Shown piece after piece: positions 1-61,600 of a stretch of DNA of 64,000 nucleotides (the first letter of the stretch is position 1; each line of letters opens with the position of its first letter). The notes under the pieces were generated by a model that did not search any database, was not told the DNA's origin, and saw only the letters and a list, made by a program, of their open reading frames with translations. This DNA is from Ascidia mentula. Its lineage: Eukaryota > Chordata > Ascidiacea > Phlebobranchia > Ascidiidae. The position numbers and the translations under genes were made by a program. The DNA lies in NCBI GenBank assembly GCA_947561715.1, contig OX387204.1, positions 4,779,001 to 4,843,000 of the forward strand, given 5' to 3'.

Positions 1-6744
<6,744 letters not shown>

Positions 6745-10748: not shown

Positions 10749-11497
10749 ATGTCAGTGTTTGTTACAGTTGGCACAACATCATTTGATCCCTTAACAGAAG
10801 CTGTTACAAGTGATACTGTTTTAAAGGTAACTTGCCTAGTTTTAAATGTGATACATCTTCACATGACAAAACTTTTGAAACTTATATCGATGCTTGGACA
10901 GGTTTTTTGATAATGTACAATGGCAGCCTTTTGGGCTTTAATGTTTTGCGAGAGTTTTATTTCCATGCAGCTGCTGCACTCTAACACTTTGTTCTTTACT
11001 CCAGATCTTGGAACAGAAATCTTACAAATCCGTTTTAGTGCAGTATGGACGAGGACACTATGAAGTTGAAAAAGGAAACGTTTCAAATATCGCTGTGGAT
11101 GGGTATAGGTACAAGGATTCAATATCAAAAGACATAGCCGATGCAGACCTGATAATCAGTCATGCAGGTAATACTGGGCAAAAATCGCAACCTGTTTTGG
11201 AAGTGCTGGAATTATTGTGATATTGGATGGAACCAACTGTTTGTTTCAGGGGCTGGAACCTGTTTGGAGGTCATGGAAGCTGGTAAACCTCTTTTGGTCG
11301 TGGTAAATGAAAATTTAATGGACAACCACCAGTTTGAATTGGCAAAACAATTTTACAATGATGGTCATTTGTTGTACTGCACGTGCAGCACTTTGGCATC
11401 GGTACTAATGGAAATGGATGTTTCTTCATTGAAACCTTTGCCACCTCCACAAACCAAGGAGTTTGCTGTTGATTTACGTGAACATTTTCTGTTGTAA
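10749..11497 (+). CDS. ALG13: UDP-GlcNAc transferase catalytic subunit, ALG13 type
   Basis: Catalytic half of the ALG13-ALG14 enzyme that adds the second GlcNAc to the dolichol-linked oligosaccharide, on the cytosolic face of the ER, for N-glycosylation. Exons: 10749-10826, 11005-11167, 11250-11497; 162 aa, close to the short ALG13 form (about 165 aa). The start [15 protein letters not shown] matches the family N-terminus. [20 protein letters not shown], then SHAGAGTCLE (HAGAG split at the second intron) and [11 protein letters not shown] form the UDP-GlcNAc-binding core of family GT28. YCTCSTL precedes a short C-terminus. There is no membrane segment; ALG14 normally anchors it. No OTU or Tudor extension is present. 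The next polyadenylation signal is at 12028-12033. Confidence 0.95.
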
Positions 11498-15500: not shown

Positions 15501-18500
15501 GTCAAAAATGTTGTATAAGATATAATAGATATAGTGCAATAAGTCCAAGTATAAAAACTTAAATACCATTGGGAAAAAGGATTCCTTTTAAACCGAAAGT
15601 TGATAATAAGATACAAAAAGGTGTAGAACTACTGCTTTAGGGCTTTGCTCCGTTTTATAATGCAATACTATATAAATAAAAGTTGTTATTACACGTCATG
15701 GTTAAATGTCGCGTAGCATTTCGTTCCATTGCAAATGAAATTTAATGACGTACAAAATACATGTCGTTTCAGGTTGTGTTTCAATTCGAACTGAAAGCAA
15801 AGGCCTGCCCAAATGATACCACGCAAAAGGATCTGATTTCGATTGCCGCTAACATAATTCCGGATGTAGTAAACATAAGTATCGGTGAGTGCAGTGCTTT
15901 TCCCAAGTTGCAAGCCAACTAATTCGTTTGGCAAATCACTTCATAGAATACTTGTGCGGTTGTGATTGTGACTCCTACGCTGAACACAACAGCCAGCATT
16001 GCAGTGGCAGGGGAAGCTTGAAGGTAAATCATGTTACAAATCCGTGCTCAACATATTTTCGTGTATTAAATGCGTATTAAAAACACGCAGCCACTATCCA
16101 CATACACTTTTGATAATGTGCAAAGACAAATAAAGCCAAAGTAAAGAGTAACTTTATCTACAAAGCAACATTTTGTTATCGGTTCTTTGCGCATACGAAC
16201 CAAGCAGATTACTAATGGATTAAAGTGCAACCAAGGACGAATTTGGTGGAGCGAGGTGTATGCTGTCAGTTTGACACATTTGTCACATACCACTGCCACT
16301 CGCTGTAAATTGTATAAGTGTGTAATTTACTCAGTGTGATGGTAAGGACGTCAGCACGTATGGAGGCGTGAGCAAAGTTCGTCAACATGGCAGGTTATTG
16401 TGGGTATCAACGCTACGCAATATCCTCGTGGGTTTATTTTGTTTCTGAAATAACATACAACTCACACACACACACTCAGGGTTCTGACTTACCTTCGCAA
16501 ACAGCATGTTACTCTACAAATACCTATAGGGAGCATTCGATGGAAAAGTGGCGGTAACTTACATTATTGGCACGATAATCTGTTTCCTTTGATAAGCGTT
16601 GCCCACACAAATTACTTTGACTTTTATCAATATCAAATTAAATGATTTAGTGCGGAACATGCGAATGTAATGAAGGCTTTGCTGGCGTGTTATGCCAATG
16701 CGAGTCACACCTTACGTCCAGCAATCTCATCCAGCAATGTAGGGACAATAGCAGCGGCCGTAATGATCAAGTTTGTCAGTAAGTATTCCTTTTCTTACAA
16801 CAAACTCTTTTTAACTACGTCATCTTCACGTACGTATATAGCGGACGCGGAACATGCGATTGTGGAAAATGCAACTGCGAGACGGGATATATGGGAAAAT
16901 ACTGTGAGTGCGACAGAACCGGATGCCCTGTTTCATCCGACGGATCCTTATGCGGAGGTAAGAGGTGCCAAGATGCGCGTTGAAATTACTTTAAATTCAC
17001 ATCCTTAAACCACATATAGCGCACAGGCACAACAGATTGGCTCTATGAGGGTCGTGATTGTGTGGTATGTTGTCTTACCTATGTAGACTCGGGTTGTCAC
17101 ACTGAAATGTTTCTGCAGTAGATTTTAAATTGATTGAGTATAAAAGCTTATGTCCGACTCATATAATAGTTTTGACCCATTGAGACTTCACTGCTTAAAT
17201 CGCAAATAATTGGTCGAATGTGAAATGTGTGTTCATACAATTGCCAAATTTTCTTTGGATTGAAATATCAAATATATAGCGGAGAGAATACTTAAAAATG
17301 GGTAGGGTAAGACCTTACTTTTACTTCAAAATTGTGTATACAGTTTGGGTGTACAGGGTGTAAGATTTCATGTATACGCCAATCAATTTAATTTCGACTG
17401 TCGTTACTTATGTCTATTTGCCTATATTGACTTTTATAATCTTGCGCATTGTCAAGGACCAACCCGGGGATTGTGCGAGCGTTGCTACGACAATGCAAGG
17501 TGCCTATGCAACAGCGCAGCAGGGTGGACTCCTAACTCAGCAGGCTTATGTGCTTGCAACGAAAACTTGTGTAAGGCGACACCAAGCGGCGATTTGTGTT
17601 CTGGTCGGGGAACGTGTAATTGTCGTTCGTGCGTTTGTAACAACGGAACGGTAGGTAGCACTTTGGTAATACGCTTTATAAGTATAATCCTGAAATAGCG
17701 GGGTGTTCATACACTTCAAGTGTGAAGATGTGCTTACAATTTAAATTTTGTGTGTTCGCTCAAATGCTGTTGAATAATCAACATCCAACTTAAATAAAAT
17801 TTGGGTCAAACCCCAAAGCACTACAAAAAACAGCTCATATATGGTACTTGATTTTGTTGAAAGACTTGGACTGGGACTTACTGTGATACCTGTCTTCGTC
17901 CATCCTGCAACAACATTACTGCCACGTGCGCCGGAACCGAGTTGCAGAAATGCGCACTCTGCGTTTACGGATCGGTATGATGCACAAACTGTCATATCTA
18001 AGAAATATTTACCGCAAACTGTGATGTTTATCAACGGAATTGTCCGAGGAAAACACAATGTTTCTTGTTTGAGTTGAATCGTTAATTTTGTGCATTTTAC
18101 AAAAAAAAGGTCTTTGATTTGGCAGCAAGGAACTGCTGATTGTCAACAACAATGCCAAGCTCTTGGCGTTAACTTCAGAAGGGTTGTAAGCCTTCCTGAT
18201 TGCTCTGTTTGTGAAGATTACCACCGCACAACAACATGTTTACAATGCCAGAAATCTAACGTGTAAGTTACGTATTTTATAACTTGGCGTTTTGCCTTTG
18301 TCTAACCTATATGCGCTACTGCTGTGACACACTTGTTTCTGCTGCATATAGGGCGCTGTTTAAACCACTCGAATGCCCACTTGAAGATGCGAGTTCGTGC
18401 AAGTTCAAGTACAGAATAGTTTGGCACAGCGATTACAACAATTACTTTCTGTATGTGGAATACTACGATACTCTTGGTAAGTAAAGGCTGTAAACAATTT

Positions 18501-20369: not shown

Positions 20370-22508
20370 TCATTTTCTCCAGTTTTCATCAAAGAAGCAA
20401 TCCTCGTAACTCGACCACTTGTGATCGTCGAAACCCCACTTTCGGGAGAACCATTCATCCGGCATATCGACAGTTAACCTGCAAAAAATGCACTGTGCAG
20501 GTTTCCTTTTTCGGACGACAAAGCACATTGATGAAACCTTAAACGTTATTGTACAAACAAAGTCAGTTTGGGATTGACGTCATTTGCGCAACAAACACTG
20601 TCTGCGACTCCGGTAAATTAACTAAGTATCGATTGTGGCCTTCCGAACTAAGTCAGCGGCATTCACTGGGACAATACATTGCGTGTTTGGATCTTTTTGC
20701 AGTAGTTTTGCAAAAATATACAAAAAATGGCAAAATTGAAACCGAAAAAATTAATTGCGGAATAATACGAAATTTCCTTGGCATTGTTCCTGAGGTTAAG
20801 TAAAAACGACTTACTCTTTTTTGCACACAACGCTTATGATCGATAGAGAGAGCCAATTAACGACTTGAAATTAATTTACCTCATGGTGGGGCCGTGTTGC
20901 AGAAGGTTCATAATTTTTTCTTCGAATGCCATGGTGAGCAGGCGATCCCGGGCGCTCCATACTCGGAATGAACTGAATACATTAGAAAGCGAAGATGACC
21001 TATCCCCTCGCAACACTTTCCGTGTCATTTTTCTTGCCAACATCGGACTGAGACTGTGCGACCTCCTGGCCGAGCGGATAAACCCCGTGTATTTGTGATT
21101 GTCGACCGAAGCATTCTCCCACGGTGTGGCACCCGTCATTACGTAAAGGGCCATAATGCCCAGAGACCAGTTATCAGAAGCTGGTGAAGCGACGTATCGA
21201 CTCGCGTTGAGAAGTTCCGGCGCTGTGAAGGCAGTGGAGAGGATTTCCGAGGTGATTTCACGCTTCACGTCCATCACTGTGTACTCGTGTACATCCGAAA
21301 GCAAGTTAACTTTTGAACTGGGCATTACAGAATGTCTTCTGAGTGATTGGGTCGCACGTCTGCCGTTCTGTGCTGCTTCGTCAACAGCGTTTTTGTTCAC
21401 CTTAAATTGCAAGTATTGCCATTTTGAATTGTCGGTATTTTAAGGCCTGTGCAAGGCGGAAACATATATTTTCCATTTGAAAGGTTTGACGCAGGTTAGA
21501 ATGTTTAACGAAAATCAATGACTGCAACACAACAACAAATTTGTCGTATGATCATAGCCTAACAAAACGTAAACAAACAAAATCATTAATGGCGGTTTCT
21601 TTTAAGATCGAATTAATGGGTTTTACTTATATTTAACCAGAAAACCTACCATAAATAAAGGATCTCTAGTGGAGGCCAGCATACTTTGCGGGGTAAGTGA
21701 GGAAGTTCGGTGAAGGAGAATCGATCGAAGGCGTTCCGTTCTCTCGTCGTTTCCTCGTCTTAAGAATTTCGACGAACCTTTCCTTTCGTTTTTCTTCACG
21801 CAAGCACCGATTGTGTAAGACTTGGCAAAACTGCACAGTTTGATGTGGCAGTGACTCATCGATGAAATAAGAACATGTTCGGGGCGCAGGTCGCCGTGGA
21901 TGATGTTTAACTTGTTATGAAGATGATCTAATGCATCCCGAAGCTGTGCAAAAATTTGCATTAGGCTTAATTGTTTATTCCTGACCAACTTTATATCTCA
22001 AGCAACCATGCATATATGTGGTTACTATTTACGGTTTTTTACACAATCTTATCGTGAAAGTCACGGGGATTCCACATGATTTATCTTAAAAGATTGTTTT
22101 CTGCGTGCTTTGTGCGGTTCTCTACGGTATATCATGCATACCCACTTGCATTATGATGTGCTTGCATGCCTGGTCGGGCAGACCCACGTTGGTGACCACA
22201 AGATTCAACAGATTTCCATCGGTCACGTGTTCCAGCATGAATTGAAAACAATGTGTGGACCTGGGAAGCGTTCCAAGGAATTGAACGAACAACTTTGAAC
22301 CGTTTAAACGCAAATGCACTCCGATTTGTAACTCGTACGCAGCCGCGTTAAGTTTAGAGACTCGCTTGGCCACCACATGGTCTTTTTTGAGTGAGTCATA
22401 CACGAGCAGAATTCCGCTGCCGAATCTTCCACGGGACAATTCGTTAATCGGTTCTAAAGCCTGGATGTTGCTGTAAGCCGGCACCGAATCGCATCCATGT
22501 TTGTCCAT
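20370..22508 (-). CDS. Diverged serine/threonine kinase-like protein, probable pseudokinase (SBK-like)
   Basis: Exons in transcript order: 22508-22146, 21988-21650, 21400-20880, 20478-20370; 443 aa. The N-lobe keeps a glycine-rich loop (SRGRFGSG, residues 25-32), the beta3 lysine in VVAKRV (K48) and the helix C glutamate (E59). The catalytic loop reads HGDLRPEHVL: Asp154 is kept, but the usual Asn is His159. The DFG motif reads SFA (174-176), losing the Mg-binding Asp. About 120 residues separate it from TAPE (293-296), against 20-35 in ordinary kinases; the insert is Arg/Ser-rich. ASDNWSLGIMALYVMTGATP gives helix F, and GPTMRLT near the end fits the terminal helix. The DNWSLGI...TGATPWENA stretch recalls SBK kinases. 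The exon 4 frame is forced by phase and restores the PxxR motif. Substrate and role unknown. Confidence 0.75.
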
Positions 22509-44988: not shown

Positions 44989-45410
44989 ATGTTTTGGGCC
45001 AAATGGAAATCACTGCACACACGTATATGCAAATAGCTGAAAACCAACGGTTTGATGTTAAACTGGGAAGTATATGGAGAAGGGTTAAGAACGCAAATTG
45101 AAGTTTTAAAGTGCGGCTAAATGCGAAATACAAATCAGCAAACCCTAGTGATGTGAAAACGGATTTCGCATTTTCGAATGGGGTTAACTAAAAATACGAC
45201 AGAATACTAAATAGAGATATAGTTTATTTCTTGCGAAACAACCCCTAATTGCACCCCTATTAGATATTGCAAAATGCGTTTGGCTTCTGTTTTGTTAGTT
45301 TCACCTAGTTGTTTAAACCACACATATGTAAAGTTTTGCGTATTTTATTTGTCGATTCAAACGCACGCCCACAACATAATTGCAGTGTTGGTTCGTCAAC
45401 TCCTGAAGTT

Positions 45411-45871
45411 TCTGTGAAATGGAATTTGTTAAATAATGGGAAAAATGCTTAAGCTGTATGACTGTAGTTTTGAAAAGTTTTTTCAAAATCTTACATTCTT
45501 CAAAATCCTCGTCCTCTTCTGGCATGAAGTCTTCGTCATCAACCGCTAAAAAGAACCATGATTTGCTAAACTTAAACATGTACAATTGTGTTGAACAGAA
45601 TTGAGCACAAAAATGTTGAGTTTATCAGTCTCAAAACCACCAACATATTCAGTTGTTTCACATCTCGTCGTTTTAGGCATCGATAAACACTCGACCTTGT
45701 TTTAATCTCACCTTCATCACCCCTGCGAATCCAACGGTAACGACGGACCCAACGAAAGCGGCGATACTTTCGGATCCTCCTCCAAAATCGACGAGAGACT
45801 ATCGACTCAGCGGAGTCAGAAGCAAGAAGGACGAGTCCAAGAAGAAGAGCGAGAAGCAGAAGTTTATTCAT
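45411..45871 (-). CDS. Secreted cationic W/R-rich host-defence peptide precursor, copy 1
   Basis: Coding exons: 45871-45712, 45545-45495, and a last exon that supplies only the stop (T from exon 2 plus AA at 45411; an alternative acceptor gives TGA). Precursor 70 aa: signal peptide MNKLLLLALLLGLVLLASDS with AES (cleavage about residue 23); about 30 strongly basic, Trp-rich residues (SRRFWRRIRKYRRFRWVRRY); then acidic VDDEDFMPEEDEDFEE from the next exon. ATG lies directly after acceptor ttctttcag. Signal, cationic core and anionic tail match the layout of Ciona hemocyte antimicrobial peptide precursors (MAM/PAP type, from memory). The acidic tail probably neutralises the core until cleavage, perhaps after the Arg-Arg before GDE. 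Antimicrobial activity is inferred. Confidence 0.8.
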
Positions 45872-46200
45872 CTGAAAGAAAGATTACTGTCACGAAGAAA
45901 AGTAACGGCTCTTTTACCACTTTAGTTTTTATACAAGTAAATTATTGCCCTCTCATATATCTGAGTCAAAGAGTCATCTATGATTTTTCTGTGCTGAATT
46001 TACGGCTAAATAAAAAAAATTGGTTTGCAAATTTAATTGATTGTTGCTTATTGATTCGAAATTTCGAACCAAATTTTTTCAATCGCTTTAAACACTAAAA
46101 CATTAAACCCCGATTAAAATTTTGTGCTGGCTACGCCACCACTCTACCCCATAATCTACAATCATAATCGGAGACTTGTTACATACACAGTTGAGCTTAC

Positions 46201-46320
46201 CTTATATCCTTGCGTGTTCCACAAAGCAAATGATAATTCTCAATACGAATGCTCTCGGCTTTATAGAGAACCGACATCTGGTCTCTGAAATCGCTTTCTT
46301 CCCTTGACTCATTTCTTATC
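46201..46320 (-). promoter_or_regulatory. Promoter and 5' UTR exon of peptide copy 1
   Basis: On the minus strand a TATAAA box lies at 46265-46260. A 5' UTR exon ends at 46201 with donor gtaagctc, spliced to the exon starting at the ATG (45871). Upstream are an AP-1 consensus TGACTCA (46305-46311) and a GATAAG motif (46315-46320). The same arrangement recurs at copy 2. Confidence 0.7.
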
Positions 46321-46539
46321 ATATTTTTCTCATACAGAAAACCTAAACAAAATTAAAGATCTAAATGCTTCCTCAGCAAAATCAGCCACTATTAAAAAAA
46401 ATGATATCGGGTGATGCGTCAGATGCATATGTCGTTAGTCGACACGATTTGAGGAAGTATCGGAGATGTGTTTTAGCCGCCTCTTGGTCTGATTATCTTC
46501 TGCTATTAAAATAAGCTTTCACGACCAGGAAATTAACGA

Positions 46540-46640
46540 GGTATGATGATTACAGTATGTAAACATAAGCGAAGTGCCAAACAGTTTACGGTCGAGCATA
46601 ATAATTCAACAAAAAAATCATATTGGCAAGGTTTTCATGA
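46540..46640 (-). promoter_or_regulatory. Distal upstream block conserved among peptide copies
   Basis: A stretch including gtatgtaaacataag and cagtttacggtcgagc is retained upstream of copies 1, 2, 3 and 5 (about 46540, 49155, 51780 and 57095). It contains forkhead-like GTAAACA words. Retention at copy 5, where much spacer has diverged, suggests either function or a simple shared origin. Confidence 0.45.
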
Positions 46641-48025
46641 ATCGCAACAATAAACAACTTGGAGCATCAGACAGGAGGAGTCAAACTTTTTACCTTGTGA
46701 ATTCGCATGTTTAATAAAAGCATAAACTCCAAGTTGTCGGCATTATGGAATCCAGTATGTGACCCAAAATTGCAAAGACGTCCAAAATTAGATGATTTAA
46801 TTTCATTAGAAAACATCTCAGGATTGGACGAATGGGAAATCCATGCACACCCTAAATCTTTATGTGACCCCACAGTTTGCCCAGGACAATAAAAAAGGCC
46901 ACATTTTTGCATTCTTTAAGGTGAAGTACAAGTCGTGTCCCGCATATTCTCTAGGACCAAACATGTTTAACTGTGAAACTAACAACATATTTGATAGCAA
47001 CGACTGAATAGTTATGTGAGAATTCAGATATACCAGTAGAACCATATCACATCATTTAAACAATATTTTATACCAAAAACGCTTCGAGCTTTATCAGCTG
47101 GGCGCAAAGGAGTTTTGAAATCCCTTGTAAAGAAATACAGCCTTCTGTGGCCAGGTGGACATACAGTTGACTTTAACAAACTGAACATTACAAGCGCTAT
47201 TTTGTGCATTTTTGCAAAGCCGTCAATTTAATATCGATGACCAAAATATATCTCCTTTCGACCCTCCCTAGCTGCAGTGTTTACGATATTCTCTTGTTTC
47301 CCATATGTTTTACATTGGCACGAATTCAGGAAGGGTCGTAATATAACGCGCACTTTGTATGTTTTGTGTTTTCGGCTTCCTTTCGTGACCAAGGAAACTC
47401 TTATTGTTTTTGTAAGAGCATTTGTTTCATGTAAACTTCAGTACCGAAATCAAATGGAAAACTACATAGATACTGAACGCGAAGCCACACTGTAGCCCAT
47501 TTACAAAAATAGAGATGGATAAACTCACCAGTGATATGTGAATTTGCGGATTCAAAATTCCGCCCGGAGTTTTGAAAAAATGTGTCATGATACTCATTGT
47601 CGGAACTTTTTTATCCTCGAAAGCATACGAGTTCAAAACTGTGACTTCACAATTACAATGGATATCTAGATCTAAAATAAACTTAACTGAGCACTTACAT
47701 GTCCTAAACATCCAAACCATATGTTGTAAAACTCCAACATTCCTTGGTTTATACAGACCACGCAATAAGGGATTTAAAAATAATTTATTTCAATTTTCTG
47801 TCACCGCCTATCTAACTGACTAAAGAATTGCATTTCAATATCGGCCACTCTAAACTTGATTTACAAAATTGGTTTAAAATCTCATTTGTTATCTTGGACA
47901 TTAACTTTTGCAATAGAAACGTTCAAAATTAAACCACAAAAGTGTAAAGTTTTGTGTATTTTATTTGTCGATTCAAACGCACGTCCACAACATAATTGCA
48001 GTGTTGGTTTGTCAACTCCTGAAGT

Positions 48026-48486
48026 TTCTGTGAAATGGAATTTGTTAAATAATGGGAAAAATGCTTAAGCTGTATGACTGTAGTTTAGAAAAGTTTTTTC
48101 AAAATCTTACATTCTTCAAAATCCTCGTCCTCTTCTGGCATGAAGTCTTCGTCATCAACCGCTAAAAAGAACCATGATTTGCTAAACTTAAACATGTACA
48201 ATTGTGTTGAACAGAATTGAGCACAAAAATGTTGAGTTCATCAGTCTCAAAACCACCAACATATTCAGTTGTTTCACATCTCGTCGTTTTAGCATCGATA
48301 AACACTCGACCTTGTTTTAATCTCACCTTCATCACCCCTGCGAATCCAACGGTAACGACGGACCCAACGAAAGCGGCGATACTTTCGGATCCTCCTCCAA
48401 AATCGACGAGAGACTATCGACTCAGCGGAGTCAGAAGCAAGAAGGACGAGTCCAAGAAGAAGAGCGAGAAGCAGAAGTTTATTCAT
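48026..48486 (-). CDS. Secreted cationic W/R-rich host-defence peptide precursor, copy 2
   Basis: Coding exons 48486-48327 and 48161-48111, then a last exon supplying the stop near 48027. The predicted 70-aa precursor is identical to copy 1. All splice sites are kept. Its promoter has TATAAA at 48880-48875, a 5' UTR exon ending at 48816, TGACTCA at 48920-48926 and GATAAG at 48930-48935. If both copies exist in one haplotype, they would double the dose of one peptide. Confidence 0.8.
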
Positions 48487-48815
48487 CTGAAAGAAAGATT
48501 ACTGTCACGAAGAAAAGTAACGGCTCTTTTACCACTTTAGTTTTTATACAAGTAAATTATTGCCCTCTCATATATCTGAGTCAAAGAGTCATCTATGATT
48601 TTTCTGTGCTGAATTTACGGCTAAATAAAAAAAATTGGTTTGCAAATTTAATTGATTGTTGCTTATTGATTCGAAATTTCGAACCAAATTTTTTCAATCG
48701 CTTTAAACACTAAAACATTAAACCCCGATTAAAATTTTGTGCTGGCTACGCCACCACTCTACCCCATAATCTACAATCATAATCGGAGACTTGTTACATA
48801 CACAGTTGAGCTTAC

Positions 48816-48935
48816 CTTATATCCTTGCGTGTTCCACAAAGCAAATGATAATTCTCAATACGAATGCTCTCGGCTTTATAGAGAACCGACATCTGGTCTC
48901 TGAAATCGCGTTCTTCCCTTGACTCATTTCTTATC
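48816..48935 (-). promoter_or_regulatory. Promoter and 5' UTR exon of peptide copy 2
   Basis: Same elements as copy 1: TATA box, spliced 5' UTR exon, AP-1 and GATA words in the same order and spacing. Confidence 0.7.
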
Positions 48936-50641
48936 ATATTTTTCTCATACAGAAAACCTAAACAAAATTAAAGATCTAAATGCTTCCTCAGCAAAATCAG
49001 CCACTATTAAAAAAAAATGATATCGGGTGATGCGTCAGATGCATATGTCGTTAGTCGACACGATTTGAGGAAGTATCGGAGATGTGTTTTAGCCGCCTCT
49101 TGGTCTGATTATCTTCTGCTATTAAAATAAGCTTTCACGACCAGGAAATTAACGAGGTATGATGATTACAGTATGTAAACATAAGCGAAGTGCCAAACAG
49201 TTTACGGTCGAGCATAATAATTCAACAAAAAAATCATATTGGCAAGGTTTTCATGAATCGCAACAATAAACAACTTGGAGCATCAGACAGGAGGAGTCAA
49301 ACTTTTTACCTTGTGAATTCGCATGTTTAATAAAAGCATAAACTCCAAGTTGTCGGCATTATGGAATCCAGTATGTGACCCAAAATTGCAAAGACGTCCA
49401 AAATTAGATGATTTAATTTCATTAGAAAACATCTCAGGATTGGACGAATGGGAAATCCATGCACACCCTAAATCTTTATGTGACCCCACAGTTTGCCCAG
49501 GACAATAAAAAAGGCCACATTTTTGCATTCTTTAAGGTGAAGTACAAGTCGTGTCCCGCATATTCTCTAGGACCAAACATGTTTAACTGTGAAACTAACA
49601 ACATATTTGATAGCAACGACTGAATAGTTATGTGAGAATTCAGATATACCAGTAGAACCATATCACATCATTTAAACAATATTTTATACCAAAAACGCTT
49701 CGAGCTTTATCAGCTGGGCGCAAAGGAGTTTTGAAATCCCTTGTAAAGAAATACAGCCTTCTGTGGCCAGGTGGACATACAGTTGACTTTAACAAACTGA
49801 ACATTACAAGCGCTATTTTGTGCATTTTTGCAAAGCCGTCAATTTAATATCGATGACCAAAATATATCTCCTTTCGACCCTCCCTAGCTGCAGTGTTTAC
49901 GATATTCTCTTGTTTCCCATATGTTTTACATTGGCACGAATTCAGGAAGGGTCGTAATATAACGCGCACTTTGTATGTTTTGTGTTTTCGGCTTCCTTTC
50001 GTGACCAAGGAAACTCTTATTGTTTTTGTGGGAGCATTTGTTTCATGTAAACTTCAGTACCGAAATCAAATGGAAAACTACATAGATACTGAACGCGAAG
50101 CCACACTGTAGCCCATTTACAAAAATAGAGATGGATAAACTCACCAGTGATATGTGAATTTGCGGATTCAAAATTCCGCCCGGAGTTTTGAAAAAATGTG
50201 TCATGATACTCATTGTTGGAACTTTTTTATCCTCGAAAGCATACGAGTTCAAAACTGTGACTTCACAATTACAATGGATATCTAGATCTAAAATAAACTT
50301 AACTGAGCATTTACATGTCCTAAACATCCAAACCATATGTTGTAAAACTCCAACATTCCTTGGTTTATACAGACCACGCAATAAGGGATTTAAAAATAAT
50401 TTATTTCAATTTTCTGTCACCGCCTATCTAACTGACTAAAGAATTGCATTTCAATATCGGCCACTCTAAACTTGATTTACAAAATTGGTTTAAAATCTCA
50501 TTTGTTATCTTGGACATTAACTTTTGCAATAGAAACGTTCAAAATTAAACCACAAAAGTGTAAAGTTTTGTGTATTTTATTTGTCGATTCAAACGCACGT
50601 CCACAACATAATTGCAGTGTTGGTTTGTCAACTCCTGAAGT

Positions 50642-51105
50642 TTCTGTGAAATGGAATTTGTTAAATAATGGGAAAAATGCTTAAGCTGTATGACTGTAGT
50701 TTAGAAAAGTTTTTTCAAAATCTTACATTCTTCAAAATCCTCGTCCTCTTCTGGCATGAAGTCTTCGTCATCAACCGCTAAAAAGAACCATGATTTGCTA
50801 AACTTAAACATGTACAATTGTGTTGAACAGAATTGAGCACAAAAATGTTGAGTTTATCAGTCTCAAAACCACCAACATATTCAGTTGTTTCACATCTCGG
50901 CGTTATAGCATCTGCAAACACTCAACCTTGTTTTAATCTTACCTTCATCACCCCTGCGAACCCAAGAACGGTAACGACGGAACCAACGAATACGACGAAT
51001 CCGTCGGATCCTTCTCCAAAATCGACGAGAGACTATCGACTCAGCGGAGTCGGAAGCGAGGAGGACGAGTCCAACAAGAAGAGCGAGGAGCAGAAGTTTA
51101 TTCAT
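50642..51105 (-). CDS. Secreted cationic W/R-rich host-defence peptide precursor, copy 3
   Basis: Coding exons 51105-50943 and 50777-50727, then a stop-only exon near 50643. Precursor 71 aa. The signal peptide is almost unchanged and the acidic exon encodes the same VDDEDFMPEEDEDFEE, but the cationic core differs (SRRFWRRIRRIRRIRWFRRY): Lys/Tyr/Phe positions become Arg/Ile. Change concentrated in the mature part is usual for defence peptides. Its promoter keeps TATAAA (51500-51495) and the 5' UTR donor (exon end 51436), but the AP-1 and GATA words are altered. Confidence 0.78.
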
Positions 51106-51435
51106 CTGAAAGAAACATTACTGTCACGAAGAAAAGTAACGGCCCTTTTACCACTTTAGTTTTTATACAAGTAAATTATTGCCCCTCTCATATATCTGAG
51201 TTAAAGAGTCGTCTATGATTTTTTCTGTGCTGAATTTACGGCTAAATAAAAAAAAATGATTTGCAAATTTAATTGATTGATGTTTATTGATTCGAAATTT
51301 CGAACCAAATTTTTTCACTCGCTTTACACACTAACACATTTAACCCCGATCAAAATTTGTGCTGGCTACGCCACCACTCTACCCCATAATCTATAATTAT
51401 AATCAGAGACTTGTTACATACACAGTTGAGCTTAC

Positions 51436-51550
51436 CTTATATCCTTGCGTGTTCCACAAAGCAAATGATAATTCTCAATACGAATGCTCTCGGCTTTATA
51501 GAGAACCGACATCTGGTCTCTGAAATCGCGTTCTTCCCTTGACTTATTTC
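51436..51550 (-). promoter_or_regulatory. Promoter of peptide copy 3
   Basis: TATAAA at 51500-51495 and a 5' UTR donor after 51436 are retained. The words that are TGACTCA and cttatc in copies 1 and 2 read TGACTTA (51540-51546) and ctaatc here, suggesting a different response. Confidence 0.6.
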
Positions 51551-53449
51551 TAATCATATTTTACTTGTGCAGAAAACCCAAACAAAATTAAAGATCTAAA
51601 GGCTTCCTCAGAAAAATCAGCCACTTTAAAAAAAAAAGTATGTTATCGGGTGATGCGTCAGATGCATATGTGGTCAGTCGTCACGAACTGAGGAAGTATC
51701 GGAGATGTATTTTAGCCGCCTCATGGTCTGATTATCTTCCGCTATTAAAATAAGCTTTCACCACCAGGCGATTAATGAGATATGATGATTACAGTATGTA
51801 AACATAAGCGAAGTGCCAAATAGTTTACGGTCGAGCATAATAATTCAACAAAAAAATCATATTGGTAAAGTTTTCACAAATCGCAATAATAAACAACTTG
51901 GAGCCTCATACAGGAGGAGTCAAACTGTTTACCTTGTGTATTCGCATGTTTAATAGATCATAAACTCCAGGGTGTCGGCATTATGGAATCCAGTATGTGG
52001 CCCAAAACTGCAAAGACGTCCAAGATTAGATGACTTTTTTTTCGGAAAACATCCCAGGTTTGGACGAATTGGAAATCCATGCACAGTGACCCCAGTTCAC
52101 CCTGCACAATGTAAAAGGCCAAATTACTGCATTATTTAAGGTTTTAACGTTTCGATATTTATCCGTTGTGTGTGAAGGGGTTTCAAAATACTTGCAATGA
52201 CATCTAGCAAACTGTGGCGTAGCCATACAATTTAACATATTGTAATAAATAGCGTTTCGTTGTGCATTTTTGCAATGCCGTAAATTTACAACCAATTGCC
52301 AAAATATATCTCGGTGACACTTTTCGAAAAGTTAACAGTCAGTGGCGATGCCATCCCAAACTTTCCCCTTTCTAGCCTCCCTAGCTGCAGTGTTTACGAT
52401 ATTCTCCTTGATTCCCATATGTTTTACTTCGGCACAAATTCAGGAAGGGTCGTAATATAACGCGCACTGTATGTTTTGTGTTTTCGGCTTCCTTTCGTGA
52501 CCAAGAAAATGTTATTGTTTTTGTGGGAGCATTTGTCTTGTGCAAACTTCAGTGTAGGAACTGTGCTTTGCCACGAATATAAACGACTCGAAACTGTGAC
52601 GCCATAAATACGATGGATATTTCAATCTAAAAAATCTTGATTACCGATTGGCACTTTTGGAATTAAAAAAGTCCAAAGCCATATGTTGTGAAATTCAACA
52701 CTCCTTTGCATTGGTTCGCATCTGTCACGAACCGGTGACGTACTCATTCCTGACAAGATGTTGTAACGACGAACCCCGAAAAACGCTGAACCTTTTACAG
52801 GTTTTACAAATTGTGACTTCTTTTGTCGACGAATTCGAGAACGAAAAAGGTGATTTAGTTTTTTTACTGCAACAGCAGAAATGTCAGTTTGAAACAAAAT
52901 ACGCGAGGACTTTAAGTGAGCTTGCGACGCTTCCAACAATATTGAAAAGCATCACTAATGATGCGTCGCGGTGCACCATATAGGAATCGCTGCGTGACGC
53001 AGGCCACGCATGAACGTTATTACGATGAATTTTGTTACAATTTTTATTACCGACCTTCTAACGGAATAAAATAATAATGCATTTTATTTTCGACCATCCT
53101 GAACCTTGATTTACAAAAATTGTTTGGAAATACTTCTGTTATATTGGACGTTAACTTTCACAATCAAAAGTTAATTTAAACCACGCTAATGTAGAGTTAT
53201 GTGTATTTTATTTTTCGAATCAAACGAAAGCCCACAGAATAATTGCAGTTTTGCATTGTCGATCTGAAGTTTCAATGAGAGAAATTCGTGGATTAAAACA
53301 GTGCAAAACCGACACTTAGAGTTTCTAGTATTAGCATAGATGACCAAAATCGTCATTGGGCTGACGCGGACAAAGTTTATATTAAAAAAAAACGTTCACT
53401 AATAAAAACGGTTTTATAATATTCTTACATGCTTCAAAATCCACGTCGT

Positions 53450-54116
53450 CTGCAGGAATGAAGTCTTTCTCGTTGATGCATAAAACTCGTAATTATTATA
53501 TAACATATATTATGCATGAATACTTGGAATCATAGGTTATGTTAAAATATCATTGAGTGTAGCAACAGCTTTTTCAATTATAAATAGTTTTTAACAGCCT
53601 TGGGACAGCATATGTTGTGATTCGACACAAATTTAGAAAGTTCACAGGCTTTGCAGTCAAGGCATTGAATTTTTTTTGAGGGCCTGCGCAGTGGGGCGAT
53701 CCTGCCCTGTGCGAAAGCATAGTGTTACTTCTGCGTTGTCAAATTCAGAAAGATTCGAAACTACTAAATACTGTATTGTTTTGCATTTCCTTATCGGGTT
53801 TAACTGTTGTAGCGTTTTTGTCGATATTTAAGCATTAGCATTTGTAACCGAACCATAGCTGTGGTTAATACACATGTGTCAAAAACCTGGTATTAACAAT
53901 CTACAGACAAAAGTCACAGTTTAAAAATCCATAAACACTCCACAATAATTTAATCTAACCGTCATCGCCCCTGCGAACAATCCAACGACGCCACCAACGA
54001 CGATGAATCAAATGCCGGTTTTTCCAAATGTATCGACGAACGACTGTCGACTCAGCGGAGTCTGCAGCGAAAAGGACGAGTCCAAGAAAAAGAGCGATAA
54101 GCAGAAGTTTATTCAT
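53450..54116 (-). pseudogene. Degenerate cationic peptide precursor, copy 4
   Basis: The first coding exon (54116-53960) is open and keeps the family's phase: a signal peptide like MNKLLLIALFLGLVLFAADS, then a W/R-rich core (KNRHLIHRRWWRRWIVRR). A sequence like the acidic exon lies at about 53480-53428 (DFIPADDVDFE), but its acceptor region does not match the other copies. The promoter is cut off: similarity to the 5' UTR exon stops near 54260, and no TATA box is seen. The core differs from all other copies. Probably not expressed as a normal precursor. Confidence 0.6.
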
Positions 54117-54311
54117 CTGAACGAACGATTACTGTTATTATCATGCTTCTTGATTCGAAGTTTTGATCAAAATTTTGTGCTGGCTACGTCTTTGCACGAC
54201 GGCATAATCTATAATCACAGTCAGAGACTTGTTGCATACACAGTGGAGCTTACCTTATATCTTTTTTTAAACGCGATGTAATAACCCTATGTAATGAAAC
54301 AATCATAAGTA

Positions 54312-55110
54312 CGTAGGATACTTCCACCGCTGCTCGTCATGTTTTTGCAACACTTTAAACTACATCCAAGCGATAAAACATCGCTAGGTGACATTTCAAT
54401 TGTGAAATATTTTCTACGAGATCTTTATTTATTATATTTTTTAATTCGACACGAATCCAAGTAGAATTGTATCATAACGAACTCCTCTATTAGCACTCTT
54501 CTGTGATAATATAGCTGCTTTCTTTTGTTACTGACATGACATCGGCATATGCTTTGGATTGTTGGTCAATTATGAAAATTTACGCTGTAAACTTTATTGT
54601 CCGTGTGTATCCTAATTTCTACAAAAAACAAAAACAATCATTGACACTCGCAGTAACATAAATTAGAAAGGGAGACTTTTTTATGTGTTTTTGGTTCTTC
54701 CCTATGTGGTTAGTTTATTTTGTCCCTGTTGCCCCGTTGTGAAACTTGCAGGACGTAATCGAACATACCAGCTTTCTCAATCATATATCGTTTTCGTTAG
54801 TGCCGTGTGACAGCATATGTTGTGATTCATCACAAATTCCGGAAGATTGGGAGATTAAACGACAACGTTGTATGATCAGCTTCCCACAATGAAAACACGA
54901 AGAGGGCATTTTCCTCAATGCTGACAGCAACAAGCGCGATTAGCGTCCCTATCTATTTTCCAGGACTATTTTTTCTGAAATACAGATTCTACTCTCGTCA
55001 ATCACTGCGACTTCCGTACACCATCACTTGCGAGGAGCAGTTATTTTATTTCATTGCGCGCAATCGTGACCAATTTTATATTTTGATTGCTGAACTTTGG
55101 TTTCTGTCCC
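54312..55110. repeat. Approximately 800-bp block, direct copy at 57217-58020
   Basis: Begins gtaggatacttccaccgctg in both places and runs through tctattttccaggactattt to about gttttctgcccc-type sequence with few differences. It truncates copy 4's promoter at one site and lies upstream of copy 5 and downstream of copy 6 at the other. No gene recognised. Confidence 0.8.
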
Positions 55111-55123
55111 CATAGAATCTGAA

Positions 55124-55560
55124 AAGTCACGCGATTCAACCGACATTCCGTTATGTGACTGGCGAAAAATTTCGCAGTGCCTTCGCGGACGCGTCGTCTG
55201 TATTGGAGCCAATTTGAGACACAAATATTTTTGGAGGAACGCCTTACGATTGTACAAAGCTATGTGGACTTCGAAGTGTGCCTTCCTGCTTTTGACACTG
55301 CCATTTATGTAAATACAAAAATTGCTTGCAAGAAACGTATTGTCTTGTCTTGCACAAATATGACTACACAAACCTAAATGCATACAGTGAAAAACTAAAA
55401 TTTTCATGTTAAACTAGGAAGTGTATGGACAAGGGTTAAGAACGCAAAATTAAAGTTGTAAAGTTGACCTGCGCTGCTGCTAAATGCGAAATATAAATCA
55501 GCAAACCCTCGTGATGTGAAAACCAATTTTGCATTTGAGACCCGTGACGAAATATTTAAC
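55124..55560. pseudogene. TPR: Duplicated fragment of the TPR 3' end
   Basis: Matches 44672-45260: the last TPR intron (attcaaccgac, gtgactggc), the acceptor aatttcgcag, the first 20 or so bases of the last exon (cttcgcggacgcgtcgtc), then the 3' UTR (ccaatttgagacacaaatat, acgattgtacaaagctatgt). The rest of the last exon, including its stop, is missing here. The block continues into copy 5, so TPR tail and adjacent peptide gene were copied together. Confidence 0.85.
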
Positions 55561-55870
55561 TAGAGATATATTTTATTTTCCACGAAGCAACCCATAAACT
55601 GCAGAAAATTGAACGCAATGAACAGCTTTCGCTTAAAATAATCCGAAACGATTTTTTATGTGTTTTAAGAAATTCAACACCATTGTTGTAAAAATACAAC
55701 ATTCCTTCAGACCGGACAATTGCACCCCTATTAGACATTGCAAAATGCCTTTAGCTTATAAAACCTCGTTGTTTAAACCACTCAAATGTAGAGTTTTGTG
55801 TATTTTATTTGTCGATTCAAACGCACGCCCACAACATAATTGCAGTGTTGGTTCGTCAACTCCTGAAGTT

Positions 55871-56313
55871 TCTGTGACATGGAATTTGTTAAATAATGAG
55901 CAAAATGCTTAAACTGTATGACTGTAGTTTTGAAAAGTTTTTTCAACATCTTACATTCTTCAAAATCTTCGTCCTTGGGCATAAGGTCTTCATCATTAAT
56001 CGCTAAAAATCAGAATTGTTTGCTTTAAACATGTACAATTATGTTGCACAAAATTGAGCACAAAAGTGTTAAGTTTATCAGTCACAAAACCACCAACATA
56101 TTCAGTTGTTTCACATCTCGCAGCGTTTTAGCATCGATAAACACTCGACCTTGTTTTAATCTCACCTTCATCACCCTTGCGGCGAAGTTTCCAAAGAAGA
56201 CGACGAAAAAATCGGCCGCTTATCCAAAAGTATCGATTAGAGATCGACTCAGCGGAGTCAGAAGCGAGGAGGACGAGTCCAAGAAGAAGAGCGAGAAGCA
56301 GAAGTTTATTCAT
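55871..56313 (-). CDS. Secreted cationic host-defence peptide precursor, copy 5
   Basis: Coding exons 56313-56166 and 56002-55955, then a stop-only exon near 55871. Precursor 65 aa. The signal peptide is the same as copy 1. The core is shorter and less basic (SNRYFWISGRFFRRLLWKLR) with more aromatic and aliphatic residues, so an amphipathic helix is plausible. The acidic exon reads INDEDLMPKDEDFEE, one codon shorter. TATAAA at 56917-56912 and a 5' UTR donor after 56853 are kept. Its downstream flank carries the copied TPR tail. Confidence 0.78.
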
Positions 56314-56517
56314 CTGAAAGAAAGATTACTGTCACGAAGAAAAGTAACGGCCCTTTTATTAATGATATTTGTGCTCTTTCATCTAAAATTGAGAAGATAT
56401 TCAAACCACTGTAGTTTTTATACCAGTAAAATACTGCCCCTCCCATGCATCTGAGGTAAAGAGTCGTTTATGACTTTTTCATTAAATGCACAAAAACTAA
56501 ATTTAAAAAAAATGATG

Positions 56518-56712
56518 AGCAAAGTGGAGCCAATAATATGAATTGCGTAAACTTGCACCTAGTTTGGTGCCCAACGGATGACGGTGATTGTATAGTCACC
56601 GCAATGTGGAAGTCTTTGCTTGGCCGTTTGGTCAGCAAAGTCGTCTGACAGTCACATCAGCTGCACTGATGAGATCTTTTAGGACGAAACATCTGTCTGC
56701 AGCTTACACAAT
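56518..56712 (-). mobile_element. Inverted-orientation copy of the repeat at 59112-59475
   Basis: Contains cacctagtttggtgcccaac and atgacggtgattgta, the reverse complement of the core at 59250-59305, and ends atctgtctgcagctta like the other. It sits in the 5' UTR intron region of peptide copy 5. Non-coding; likely a small non-autonomous element. Confidence 0.65.
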
Positions 56713-56852
56713 AAACAAAAATATTTGCAAATTTTGAACCAAAAAGATTTAATCGCTTTAAACACTGAAACATTTGACCCCAATGAAAATTTGCGCCCCA
56801 ACCCATAATCTATAATCATAATCAGACTTGTTACATACATAGTTAAGCTTAC

Positions 56853-56917
56853 CTTATGACTTTGCGTGTTCAACAAAGCAAATGATAATTCTCAAAGTGA
56901 GTGCTCTCGACTTTATA
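56853..56917 (-). promoter_or_regulatory. Promoter and 5' UTR exon of peptide copy 5
   Basis: TATAAA at 56917-56912, and a 5' UTR exon ending at 56853 with a gtaagc donor. The AP-1 and GATA words of copies 1 and 2 are not recognisable. Confidence 0.6.
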
Positions 56918-57216
56918 GAAAATCTAACAACGTCCACAAAAAAATCATCCACTTTTTTAATACATACTGTTTTCGTGTAATGAGTTGAATGCATATGTCG
57001 CCAGTCGACACGAATTGAGGAAGTATCGGAGATGTGTTTTAGCCGCTTCATGGTTTGATAATTTTCCGCCATCAAAATAAGCTTTCATGACCAAGCGATA
57101 TCGATGATGATTACAGTATGTAAACATAAGTGAAGTGCCCAACAGTTTACGGTCGAGCATAATAATTCAACAAAAAATCATATTGGTAAGGCTTTCATAA
57201 AAGGAGGAGAAACTAT

Positions 57217-58020
57217 CGTAGGATACTTCCACCGCTGCTCGTCATGTTTTTGCCACACTTTAAACCACAGCCAAGCGATAAAACATCGCTAGGTGACATT
57301 TCAATTGTGAAATATTTTCTACGAGGTCTTTATTTATCATATTTTTTAATTCAAGTACGAATCCAAGCAGAATTGTATCATAACGAACTCCTCTATTCGC
57401 ACTCTTCTGTGATAATATAGCTGCTTTCTTTTGTTACTGACTTGACATCGGCATATGTTTTGGATTGTTAGTTAATTATGAAAATTTACGCTGTACTTTA
57501 ATGTCCGTGTGTAGTCTAATTTCTACACAAAAAAACAAAATCATGGGCACCCGCAGTAACATAAATTAGAAAGGGAGACTTTTTTATGTGTTTTTGGTTC
57601 TTCCCTATGTATGTGGTTAGTTGATTTTGTCCCTCTTGCCCCATTGTAAAACTGGCAGTAGGGCGTAATCTAATATACCAGCTTTCTCAATCATAAATCG
57701 TTTTCGTTAGTGCCGTGTGACAGCATATGTTGTGATTCGTCACAAATTCCGGAATATTGGGAGATTAAACGACAACGTTGTATGATCAGCTTCCCGCAAT
57801 GAAAACACGAAAAGGGCGTTTTCTCAATGCTGACAGCAACAAGCGCGATTAGCGTCCCTATCTATTTTCCAGGACTATTTTTTCTGAAATACAGATTCTA
57901 CTCTCGTCAATCACTGCGACTTCCGTACACCATCACTGAGGAGCAGTCATTTTATTTTATTGGGCGCAATTGTGACTAATTTTATATTTTGATTGTTTAA
58001 CTTTGGTTTCTGCCCCCAAA
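57217..58020. repeat. Second copy of the 800-bp block at 54312-55110
   Basis: Direct repeat with a few per cent differences and small indels (for example, an extra tatg near 57610). No coding content recognised. Confidence 0.8.
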
Positions 58021-58178
58021 GAATCTGCAAAAAAGCATAAATTATTTGGACGTGCAATGTTATGCATTATTATTAGCTTTAAAATCATACTGCATCAATA
58101 CAATTTACAAAACACGATAGCAGCTCCTCACTATAATCGTCCGGTAACAAACAAACTAAACTATGACTCACAAATTTC

Positions 58179-58604
58179 CTAATCCATGTCATCATCAAAA
58201 GAGAACTTCTCTGAATCCATTTCTAAAATCATGAAATGAACAAAATAATTTACACGAAATTTATACAAAAATCAAATTCAAGACACAAGCGTTATTTAAG
58301 TAACCTTGACGTCAGTCCGCAAGTCTGAAAAACCGCCCGGTTAGCACAAGCATTTTTTAATTAGTGAAAACACGCCAAACTTACAGAGAGCTTCTCGAAC
58401 ATTGTCACCAATTTTCGTTATCGTGTTAAACAACCGCCAGGCGATGTGCTTACCTTCATCCAGCTTGTGTTTTTTATTACGATGGCCCCATCGCACACGG
58501 CGCCTGACCACCCACCATTCACGGCGTAGATTCCCAGACTCCGCCGAGTCGAAAGCGAGAAGGACGAATCCAAGAAGGAGAGCAAATACTACAAATTTGT
58601 TCAT
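58179..58604 (-). CDS. Secreted cationic W/R-rich host-defence peptide precursor, copy 6 (most diverged)
   Basis: Coding exons 58604-58454 and 58222-58179; 64 aa with the stop inside the second exon. Signal peptide MNKFVVFALLLGFVLLAFDS plus AES, still clearly family. The core begins GNLRREWWVVRRRVRWGHRN, then KKHKLDE: Trp-, Arg- and His-containing. The acidic exon encodes MDSEKFSFDDDMD. Its layout keeps phase-1 splicing and a tttttttag acceptor right before the ATG, but it lacks the extra stop-only exon. It lies outside the 2.6-kb units and is probably the oldest branch. I found no convincing TATA box upstream. Confidence 0.75.
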
Positions 58605-61600
58605 CTAAAAAAAGAGGCATCCATTATGCAGTGAAAGGCAAAGATCGAACCCAGCTGACTCGCAAGCGGTAAACAAAGTCTCAATTGCGAGCTGGAGGTA
58701 ATGTATAGCAGTCAGTCATCATGTTTTGTGTCTTTCATAATCCCGACCATCTATTGCCTTCTTACAATTATATATTGTTCTTTTATTTGGTAGAACTACA
58801 ACATAAAGTACAACTAAATTAAAACACAAATTCAACCGCTACATAAAAGCAAACAACTCTTCAACAGTCTGAGCAACTATAGCGGATAAGCGAGATAATC
58901 GTGCCTTTTGTACATGCACGACTGACACAGTCAACGATAATAGCCAGAAAGAGCGATCTTTGCTTTAAAATAGCGTCTAATTGAGTTCGCTTATGCGTCT
59001 CATAATCGCTCCGTGTGGCGTTTCACTGCACGGCTATTTTTAAGCGTACCCCTTTTCAAGAAAAAAATAATTTGCACAATGAAGACAGTTTGAGAAACCT
59101 AAAAATAAAATAAGCAATGTGGAGCCAATAATATGAATTGTGTATAAGCTGCAGACAGATGGTCACTGTTTCGACCTAAAAGGTCTCATCAGTGCAGCTG
59201 GTTTGACTATAAGACGACTTTGCTGACCAAACTGCCAAGCAAAGACTTCCACTTTGTGGTGACCATACAATCACCGTCATCCGTTGGGCACCAAACTAGG
59301 TGCAACAAAAAACGGAGAAAACAAGGTGGAAACACTATGGCCAAGCAAAGCTCAACCAATAGTGCCGTCAGGCCCCGTGTCACAATAATCATATGATAAG
59401 CAATGTGGAGCCAATAATATGAATTGTGTATAAGCTGCATTTAGGTCGAAACAGTGGCCATCTGTCTGCAGCTATTACACTAAAAATAAAACTTTACATA
59501 TTTCTCCATACATCAATTTTAGCCAAATCGTATGTTAATCGCGAATAGGTTTTCTACTAAATGGATCGAACGCGATGCCGTCGGTCGATCGACGCGCACC
59601 CAACAGTTGCAGCTACTTATTTTCGAACAAGAAATATACAGCAATCAACGTTGGGAAGGAAAGACGCTGCTGTGACTGCAATATGCTCTGTGGTAAAATT
59701 GACAGTCACCCCACAAGCGGCAAGATCGATTAAAAACTTTTCGGAAATATAAACAAAAACAGAACGTTGTGGTCATCTTACTCGAACGTGATCTTCGTGT
59801 TTCTTATTATAGCTTGCTATTTCGCTTCACAATCATTGAGTGTTCTGCAGGAGTGTTGTTCAACAAAGATTATGTGTAGAATTTATCTATGCATTTGTTT
59901 CTCATCTGTACAAAAATATTTCTGTTCGGAAAACCTTTACCTTTGTACTACAGATTTCATGTGTCATTGTTAACAAAGTGGACTCATTCCCAAAATAGAT
60001 AAATTAGTTTTTTAATTTTTATTTCTATTTCTGGCTTGGTTTTCTCTATTTTTTTCTCATGGTGAAGAGATTTTTATAGATAGATTCCGAACATGTTTCG
60101 TGTTGGGTTCTTTAGCCGTTTCACATACGTCTTACCACCTTATTTTTGGATCGGTACATTTCACGAAATGAGCTGTATATAATGATGGTAAATCGTAAGA
60201 GTTCCATGAACAATATTTTCAAAATAGAGAATCTATATAAAAGCGAATCATTTTGTAATTAATTCCTTGTGCAACGGTGCTAAATTTACCCAACTGTTTT
60301 CAATAAACACTAATAATTGAGACAATATTTAAAATAAACTACACCTCCTTCCAAAGTTGCCAGCTGAATATCGAGGCAAAGGATTCTACATTGTGGTGAC
60401 TATATGCAGTCACCGACATTTGATGCATGGTCACAAAACTATAGGTTTAAACCACTGTCGACGAACCTATAGGTTGAACTTACCATGTCCAACCTTATAA
60501 AACCAATCGCGCCTCAGGCTGTTTGTAATAAAAATCATTAGTGAACAATTGTGAGGTTTGGTAAATATTGGTTGTAGTATACTAAATCAAAATGATAATA
60601 CTTAGAGAAAGTGTTATGTTTATGTCGCACCATATGGACAAATCATAGCATAAATGTAAAGCATTTTGTTTGTGCTTCATCGGTGCCGAACAACCATTAA
60701 ATGACGACGTCCCATATGCTGTGTTTCGGCACGAACTCTGTCAGCCACCATCATGTCGGTATAATGTATTCTGGCACAACCTTCCACATTCTGTCAGCTA
60801 TAAAAGTTTTTGTTTTTAAAACTTGTTTGCACAAAAACAAGGAATATTTTTCTTAATTAACTGTTTGAAAATACAACATAAATATCAGGTAAACATTATG
60901 ATTGAACAAAATTACGCCATTATGCCAAAAACAAGTAGGATCCACGTAAAACGTATGCAAGAAAAAACAAGGAGAATTAGTTAATGATACAGCGATGTTA
61001 CAGACGTGGTTATTAGAAACCTCTCACAAAAAAGTAAATTTATTTTGCATCAAAACAATTACGAGTAGATACGTTCTCGTGTACGAGCCACATAAAGCGT
61101 AACACGTCGAGAATAAACGCAATAAAATTTTTTTTCGAAAAAATGTGCTTGCCAAGAATGGAACTTGCGTTCCATCGCATTGCCTAAACATCGTTTGATG
61201 ACAGCCGTATACATCAGTGACTCTCAACCTGTGGTACGCGAGAGCCTTTCGGATCGTATATGAAGCTACATGTGAAAAAACAAAAATGTTAGTAATAAAC
61301 AAATCCAATTATTACAAGTCTGCACAACTGAATATCCGCATCTTTAACATCCCCTGGCTTTCCCCCTGGAATATCCGCCTTACACTGTGTTTACGGTATA
61401 TGTTGTATGTGTTTTGCGCATCATTTTGTTTTCAACTTTGGCCAGGAACCAGGTAGGTGGCACTCGATAACAGTAAAACATTTTAAAAATGTATGGTCTA
61501 AATATTAACACCTTCTCAATTTCATATGTTTTGCATCGGCACGATTTCAGGAAGGGGTATCAGCTTCCTATTTATTAAATCCATCGTGGTGTGATGTGGC

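Follow-up and report, generated by a model that had tools for sequence, protein, structure and literature searches.

A tandem array of putative acid-masked antimicrobial precursor genes in the ascidian Ascidia mentula and its relatives across the genome

Six minus-strand genes that share an MNK start lie one after another between 45.3 and 58.6 kb of a 64,000-nucleotide stretch of the genome of the ascidian Ascidia mentula (contig OX387204.1, positions 4,779,001 to 4,843,000; the whole stretch is referred to as the window), raising the question of what kind of peptide they encode and how the array came about. The array is real and of ascidian origin and, judging from the sequence, most likely encodes antimicrobial precursors activated at a Gly|Asp site. 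Each gene probably encodes an acid-masked, secreted antimicrobial precursor resembling the second of the 2 signal classes reported by Ohtsuka and Inagaki (2020) in Ciona intestinalis type A (PMC7387483). The family to which the genes belong is a large new branch of a kind known from Ciona since 2020.

The open reading frames of the 6 genes (M1 to M6) start at positions 45871, 48486, 51105, 54116, 56313, and 58604, and each ATG sits immediately 3′ of a splice-acceptor AG (6/6). From this ATG, exon B runs through a 23-residue signal (cut site predicted by eye), which in the window reads MNKLLLLALLLGLVLLASDSAES and variants, and a basic core rich in arginine and tryptophan to the motif GDE, or GDD in M4 and LDE in M6, and a phase-1 donor. 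In-frame acidic exons (exon C) follow 3′ of the donor. The modular plan proposed in the preliminary description of this DNA (signal plus cationic core, phase-1 intron, acidic tail) is borne out, the donor and the acidic exon being present in 6 of 6 genes. Exon B of M1 (45712..45871) ends GDE|G before the donor GTGAGA; that of M2 (48327..48486) encodes an identical peptide, and those of M3, M4, and M5 occupy 50943..51105, 53960..54116 (donor GTTAGA), and 56166..56313, respectively. M6 (58454..58604), in which the core ends KL|DE, is the most divergent member of the array. The acidic tail reads AVDDEDFMPEEDEDFEE in M1 to M3 (45495..45545, where the exon ends T|GTAAG, 48111..48161, and 50727..50777), AINDEDLMPKDEDFEE in M5 (55955..56002), and EMDSEKFSFDDDMD in M6 (58179..58222), whereas M4, a doubtful member, has a possible acidic exon (53429..53485) only via a shifted acceptor. 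The same description counted 6 genes with very different cores; 6 precursors are indeed present, but the cores of M1 and M2 are the same and that of M3 is close to M1, so that the number of distinct cores is 5 and their diversity had been overstated.

Beyond that description, the locus displays a TATA box, a predicted 5′ untranslated region (UTR) exon, and a predicted 3′ intron, and its relatives form a genome-wide family. A TATAAAG box, an AATAAA signal, and a short 5′ UTR exon whose end reads ATAAG|GTAAGC recur in M1, M2, M3, and M5. Box and exon span 46201..46265 in M1 (box at 46265, exon end at 46201, with a putative start site), 48816..48880 in M2, 51436..51500 in M3, and 56853..56917 in M5. 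Exon C of these 4 genes ends GAAGAAT|GTAAG, and splicing to a later ACAG|AA would complete a TAA stop codon; in M1, the initial AA would belong to a 3′ UTR exon at 45330..45411, with AATAAA at 45349 and an approximate 3′ end. The GTAAG and ACAG sites are also retained in a relative at C67:14.81 Mb. Reading through a long exon C, as M1 and M5 would allow, was rejected because M2, M3, and the relative C67a stop early, yet all 5 genes retain GTAAG and ACAG. M6 has a TAG stop codon within exon C. M4 lacks AG at its neighbours' acceptor positions for both the acidic exon and the last exon, and no TATA match was found in the stretch scanned; this gene may use other splice sites or be decaying. The M4 region (53429 to 54116) has the appearance of decay next to open relatives.

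The acidic tail is not confined to the array. In all 33 family genes tested, the most acidic downstream exon was more acidic than expected from dinucleotide shuffles (p at most 0.02; up to 730 bases after the donor, 300 shuffles per gene), the set comprising 18 genes picked because the tail had already been seen and then 15 of the remaining 16; C2c, with no donor at the expected place, was left out. None of the 300 shuffles was as acidic for M1, M2, M3, M5, or M6, and M4 gave the weakest result (p = 0.02). Core charge and tail charge vary inversely (r = −0.76 across 22 precursors, with a net charge within 3 in 19/22), with core charges of up to +18; the comparison in its larger form, with 26 of the 34 genes, omits copies or near-copies (M2, C70c, and 2 of the trio at C70:12.39) as well as C69b, C2c, C1a, and C1b, the tails of which were uncertain when it was made. 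Because the members are related and the acceptors were chosen by acidity, the charge relation serves as supporting evidence only.

The junction between core and tail is conserved as well. Reading 34 exons by eye placed Gly|Asp at the end of the core in 23 of the 26 genes outside a branch characterized by RRRR blocks and tyrosines (RRRR-tyrosine branch), including C70l, C1a, and C1b, which have weak donors; the boundary of C2c is unsettled. Within the RRRR-tyrosine branch, the boundary is Tyr|Asp in 8/8 genes, and Gly precedes Asp in none of them (0/8). In the window, Gly stands directly before the acidic cut site in 5 of the 6 genes. An enzyme of the kind that converts such a glycine into an amide is encoded in the genome: one exon within C69:6900-8100 matches solved PAM structures (PDB search, E = 3e-21), a check made since PF03712 alone cannot tell PAM from related oxidases. 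Cleavage before an acidic residue has been proposed for the Ciona precursors, and styelins and clavanins of Styela clava are cut before D and DD, respectively (PMC7387483), and have an amidated C-terminus (PMC10608444). The latter peptides are His/Phe-rich or cecropin-like, unlike the array, a distinction that follows their description rather than their precursor sequence. Furthermore, Gly|Asp cleavage and subsequent amidation would account for CiEMa, a Ciona haemocyte peptide identified by tandem mass spectrometry (PMC10888236).

CiEMa also suggests a different role for the array, namely that its products are haemocyte signalling peptides, which would be amidated and, instead of killing microbes, act on receptors of the stomach or pharynx. 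Granular haemocytes contain CiEMa, which carries a C-terminal amide following the presumed Gly|Asp cut and alters gene expression in the pharynx (PMC10888236), and the array family retains the same boundary. Nevertheless, neighbouring cores vary in both length and sequence, unlike the usual receptor ligand, core charges are as high as those given above, and the CiEMa sequence is not W/R-rich. We therefore regard a signalling role as unlikely.

The interpretation as antimicrobial precursors draws instead on the second Ciona class, with the signal consensus MNKSALLXLLXXGLXVLXEXXXA (23 residues) and 6 members, including KH.S921.1; 5 novel Ciona peptides were synthesized, all 5 of them active, and 2 novel genes were induced by lipopolysaccharide (LPS) (PMC7387483). 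Like this family, the array has signals of 23 residues that begin MNK, cationic cores rich in W (compare KH.S921.1), and great variability among the cores; the signals were compared with the published consensus only, and signals tend to be alike through composition alone. Unlike in the Ciona family, the cores are Arg-rich rather than Lys-rich, a helix is unsupported, and the acidic tail is long rather than short or absent. The window cores match Ciona peptides weakly, the lowest p value for M1 being 0.028 among the best 4 matches listed per Ciona peptide. For the relatives C67a and C70b, none of 500 whole shuffles each equalled the match to KH.S921.1, although with 143 comparisons made this control is weak. 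KH.C1.640 aligns through RRRRYDQ with the RRRR-tyrosine genes at C52 and C2:15.56 Mb, and with core and tail shuffled apart the alignments were equalled by 3 and 5 of 2000 shuffles, these being best matches already seen. KH.C1.640 is active and LPS-induced, and both it and KH.C7.94 are active as synthetic peptides (PMC7387483). The RRRRYDQ boundary (of KH.C1.640) and RRR blocks with aromatic spacers are shared with the RRRR-tyrosine branch, so this likeness concerns branches outside the window; none of the cores within it is an RRRR-block peptide. The order of signal, cationic, and anionic regions is also that of Ci-MAM and Ci-PAP of Ciona, but the Ci-MAM signal is of an MDRKIVFAL type that the window signals do not match; against a 19-residue fragment of Ci-MAM-A, the sole Ci-MAM/Ci-PAP sequence included, M5 scored best among the window genes (p = 0.07). 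Pfam returned no family for M1, M5, or M6, and its matches for 2 relatives all stayed below the curated cut-off; a PDB search with M1 gave chance matches only (best E = 0.56).

How far does the family extend? The genome comprises 79 contigs with a total of 195.8 Mb. Searching it with the M1 protein yielded 19 matches, and a 20-letter AG-MNKLLL pattern yielded 28, whereas the same pattern reversed yielded 2; a family exon is encoded at 25 of these 28 matches (one broken). A looser pattern gave 37 matches against 16 in the control. In total, at least 34 open signal-core exons were identified in about 15 places on 8 contigs, along with 3 broken relatives and 2 further copies at C2:7.76 Mb that are partial or unclear. 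Pattern matches at C1:18.79 and C52:8.47 Mb contained no family exon on reading. The branches differ in their cores: C72, C67, and C70 near 4.9 and 9.4-9.7 Mb carry Arg/Trp cores, whereas those on C69 and C1 are mostly short; on C2 near 7.2 and 7.6 Mb the cores consist of Cys-bracketed Arg blocks, and RRRR blocks interspersed with aromatic spacers occur on C70 near 12.4 Mb, on C73, on C52, and on C2 near 5.4 and 15.6 Mb. At C52:22825900-22826800 (22.83 Mb) and C2:15557800-15561400, the core is a near-perfect 7-residue repeat, ARRRRYY, ending RRRRYDQ. A relative starting at C70:4944285 (within C70:4935001-4945000) has a much shortened core, and the position of its neighbours' acidic-exon acceptor reads GG, not AG. 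The source of the assembly was assessed through contig C79, which carries COX1 in an open frame with 18 AGA/AGG codons, 16 of them inside COX1. There, AGR codons are read as Gly, as in the ascidian mitochondrial code (table 13), many of them at positions that we take to be conserved glycines (e.g., in IGGFGNW, LPGFG, and FTVGMDVD). To our knowledge, this code is confined to tunicates, and the reading of AGR as Gly in COX1 therefore supports an ascidian origin.

The Tyr- and Arg-repeat cores of the related branches raise another alternative, in which the Arg/Trp/Tyr-rich cores would serve the tunic as structural or wound-sealing peptides and become cross-linked once their tyrosines are oxidized; styelins, for instance, bear oxidized residues such as dihydroxyphenylalanine (PMC10608444). 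Given that the window cores carry only 0-2 Tyr and that the genes are laid out like those of antimicrobial precursors, we find a tunic function quite improbable as the explanation of the array, although the 2 roles are compatible.

The history of the array can be read from its repeats. The M1 unit (45313-47928) and the M2 unit (47929-50544) form a tandem 2.6-kb copy (45313..50544), the source of the identical exon-B peptides and acidic tails of the 2 genes, with 13 differences in 2615 aligned bases and 2 gaps (99.5% identity). A third, older unit begins at 50545 and is about 93% identical to each of the 2 across its first 1.6 kb. Upstream of M4 and M5, the blocks 54312-55125 and 57217-58031 are 94.3% identical to each other, so that stretches other than the gene units have been duplicated too. 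These identities indicate repeated local duplication, through which the array appears to have arisen. That it is instead partly artefactual or dead, with M1/M2 an assembly duplicate and M4 a pseudogene, as the near-identity of the 2 units, the 2 acceptors missing from M4, and the 3 broken relatives (C70:4950828, C70:4964763, and C70:4966035) might suggest, is very unlikely, because the units do differ, at 13 positions and by 2 gaps, because the third unit next to them is clearly distinct, and because open frames and splice sites are kept in M3, M5, and M6. Near M5 and M6, 2 inverted copies of a repeat, at 56553-56710 and 59141-59305, are 89% identical, and the repeat could be a short mobile element.

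Host-defence peptides would be expected, according to the preliminary description, to change more in the core than in the signal. This holds for part of the comparisons: core nonsynonymous change exceeded that of the signal at p < 0.05 in 8 of all 15 computed pairs (Fisher tests; the pairs are non-independent and the p values uncorrected for multiple tests), as in the pair M1-M5, with 0/49 changes in the signal and 21/60 in the core. The remaining 7 pairs, which include near-identical ones and 3 with C67a, did not reach this threshold. Taken with the Ciona-like order of signal, cationic, and acidic regions (PMC7387483), the excess of core change lends partial support to the host-defence reading. 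The accompanying suggestion that several members may be uncharacterized stands insofar as we found no published description of the array genes in the open-access literature, but the kind had already been described in Ciona.

Several observations weigh against the reading as antimicrobial precursors. Set against change in intron 2, nonsynonymous change in the core was greater at p < 0.05 in no more than 3/15 pairs (M1-M5, M3-M5, and C70b-C70g) and smaller in one (M4-C67a, p = 0.007), so that faster-than-neutral change of the core is supported in few pairs. Synonymous change was also higher in the core than in the signal in 3/15 pairs, and homogenized flanks or exchanged cores may therefore contribute. 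The dN/dS of the core lay between about 0.3 and 1.7 in the 13 pairs for which it is defined (2 further pairs gave no defined value); positive selection is therefore not demonstrated. Adding 4 later RRRR-type members weakened the charge relation (r = −0.60 in 26 precursors, 19/26 within 3; rho = −0.54 in a less redundant set of 19). Gly is missing from the boundary in M6 and C69a, an exact pattern modelled on the Ciona-like MNK-S/T-A/V signal matched no more often than its control (3 times each), and CiEMa has been proposed as a signal, not an antimicrobial (PMC10888236). In Ciona, 4 segments failing one criterion had no or weak activity against Escherichia coli, and 2 of these are the Arg-block peptides KH.L63.9 and KH.S1007.2 (PMC7387483); Arg blocks alone are thus not sufficient for killing. 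Finally, the hydrophobic moment at 100 and 170 degrees exceeded that of shuffles (p < 0.05) in none of 14 cores. An amphipathic helix was accordingly rejected as the organizing principle, and the window peptides are not classed with linear helical peptides, although they may act like them all the same. Regular hydrophobic spacing was found at p < 0.05 only in M4 and 4 RRRR-type cores of the 14 tested.

With these reservations, activity of an acid-masked antimicrobial precursor can be pictured as follows. The 23-residue signal would direct the precursor into the secretory pathway, probably to haemocyte granules. The strongly basic R/W-rich core would be kept inactive by an acidic tail whose negative charge roughly balances it. 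A protease cutting before Asp would part core from tail at the conserved boundary, a Gly preceding Asp, where present, would be converted by PAM into a C-terminal amide, and the freed core would bind and disrupt negatively charged microbial membranes. Tandem duplication would supply new copies, in which the core alters by substitution and by codon gain or loss while the signal, the boundary, and the gene plan stay. We tentatively extend this scheme, as a possibility rather than an expectation, to an arsenal built on a single cassette, in which a near-frozen signal exon, a hypervariable basic core, a charge-offsetting acidic exon, and a fixed Gly|Asp or Tyr|Asp cut would allow one Asp-directed protease, with PAM for the Gly forms, to activate all products, and in which clusters would evolve different cores (Arg/Trp, 7-residue RRRR-YY(A) repeats, and Cys-bracketed Arg blocks). 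Precursors of the cationic/acidic Ciona type make up a large multi-locus family in another ascidian, with 34 candidate genes. It becomes testable whether ascidian haemocytes free and amidate peptides at the conserved Gly|Asp site, and the family offers a natural set for following how antimicrobial cores diversify while their surroundings stay.

The window has a GC content of 39.3%. Outside the array, it contains exon-like pieces of ordinary genes, matching a C2H2 zinc finger (2945-3277, below cut-off), the SIR2 family (8652-8984), the C-terminal domain of glycosyltransferase 28 (11162-11497), an integrin EGF domain (17345-17698, below cut-off), and a protein kinase (21623-21988).

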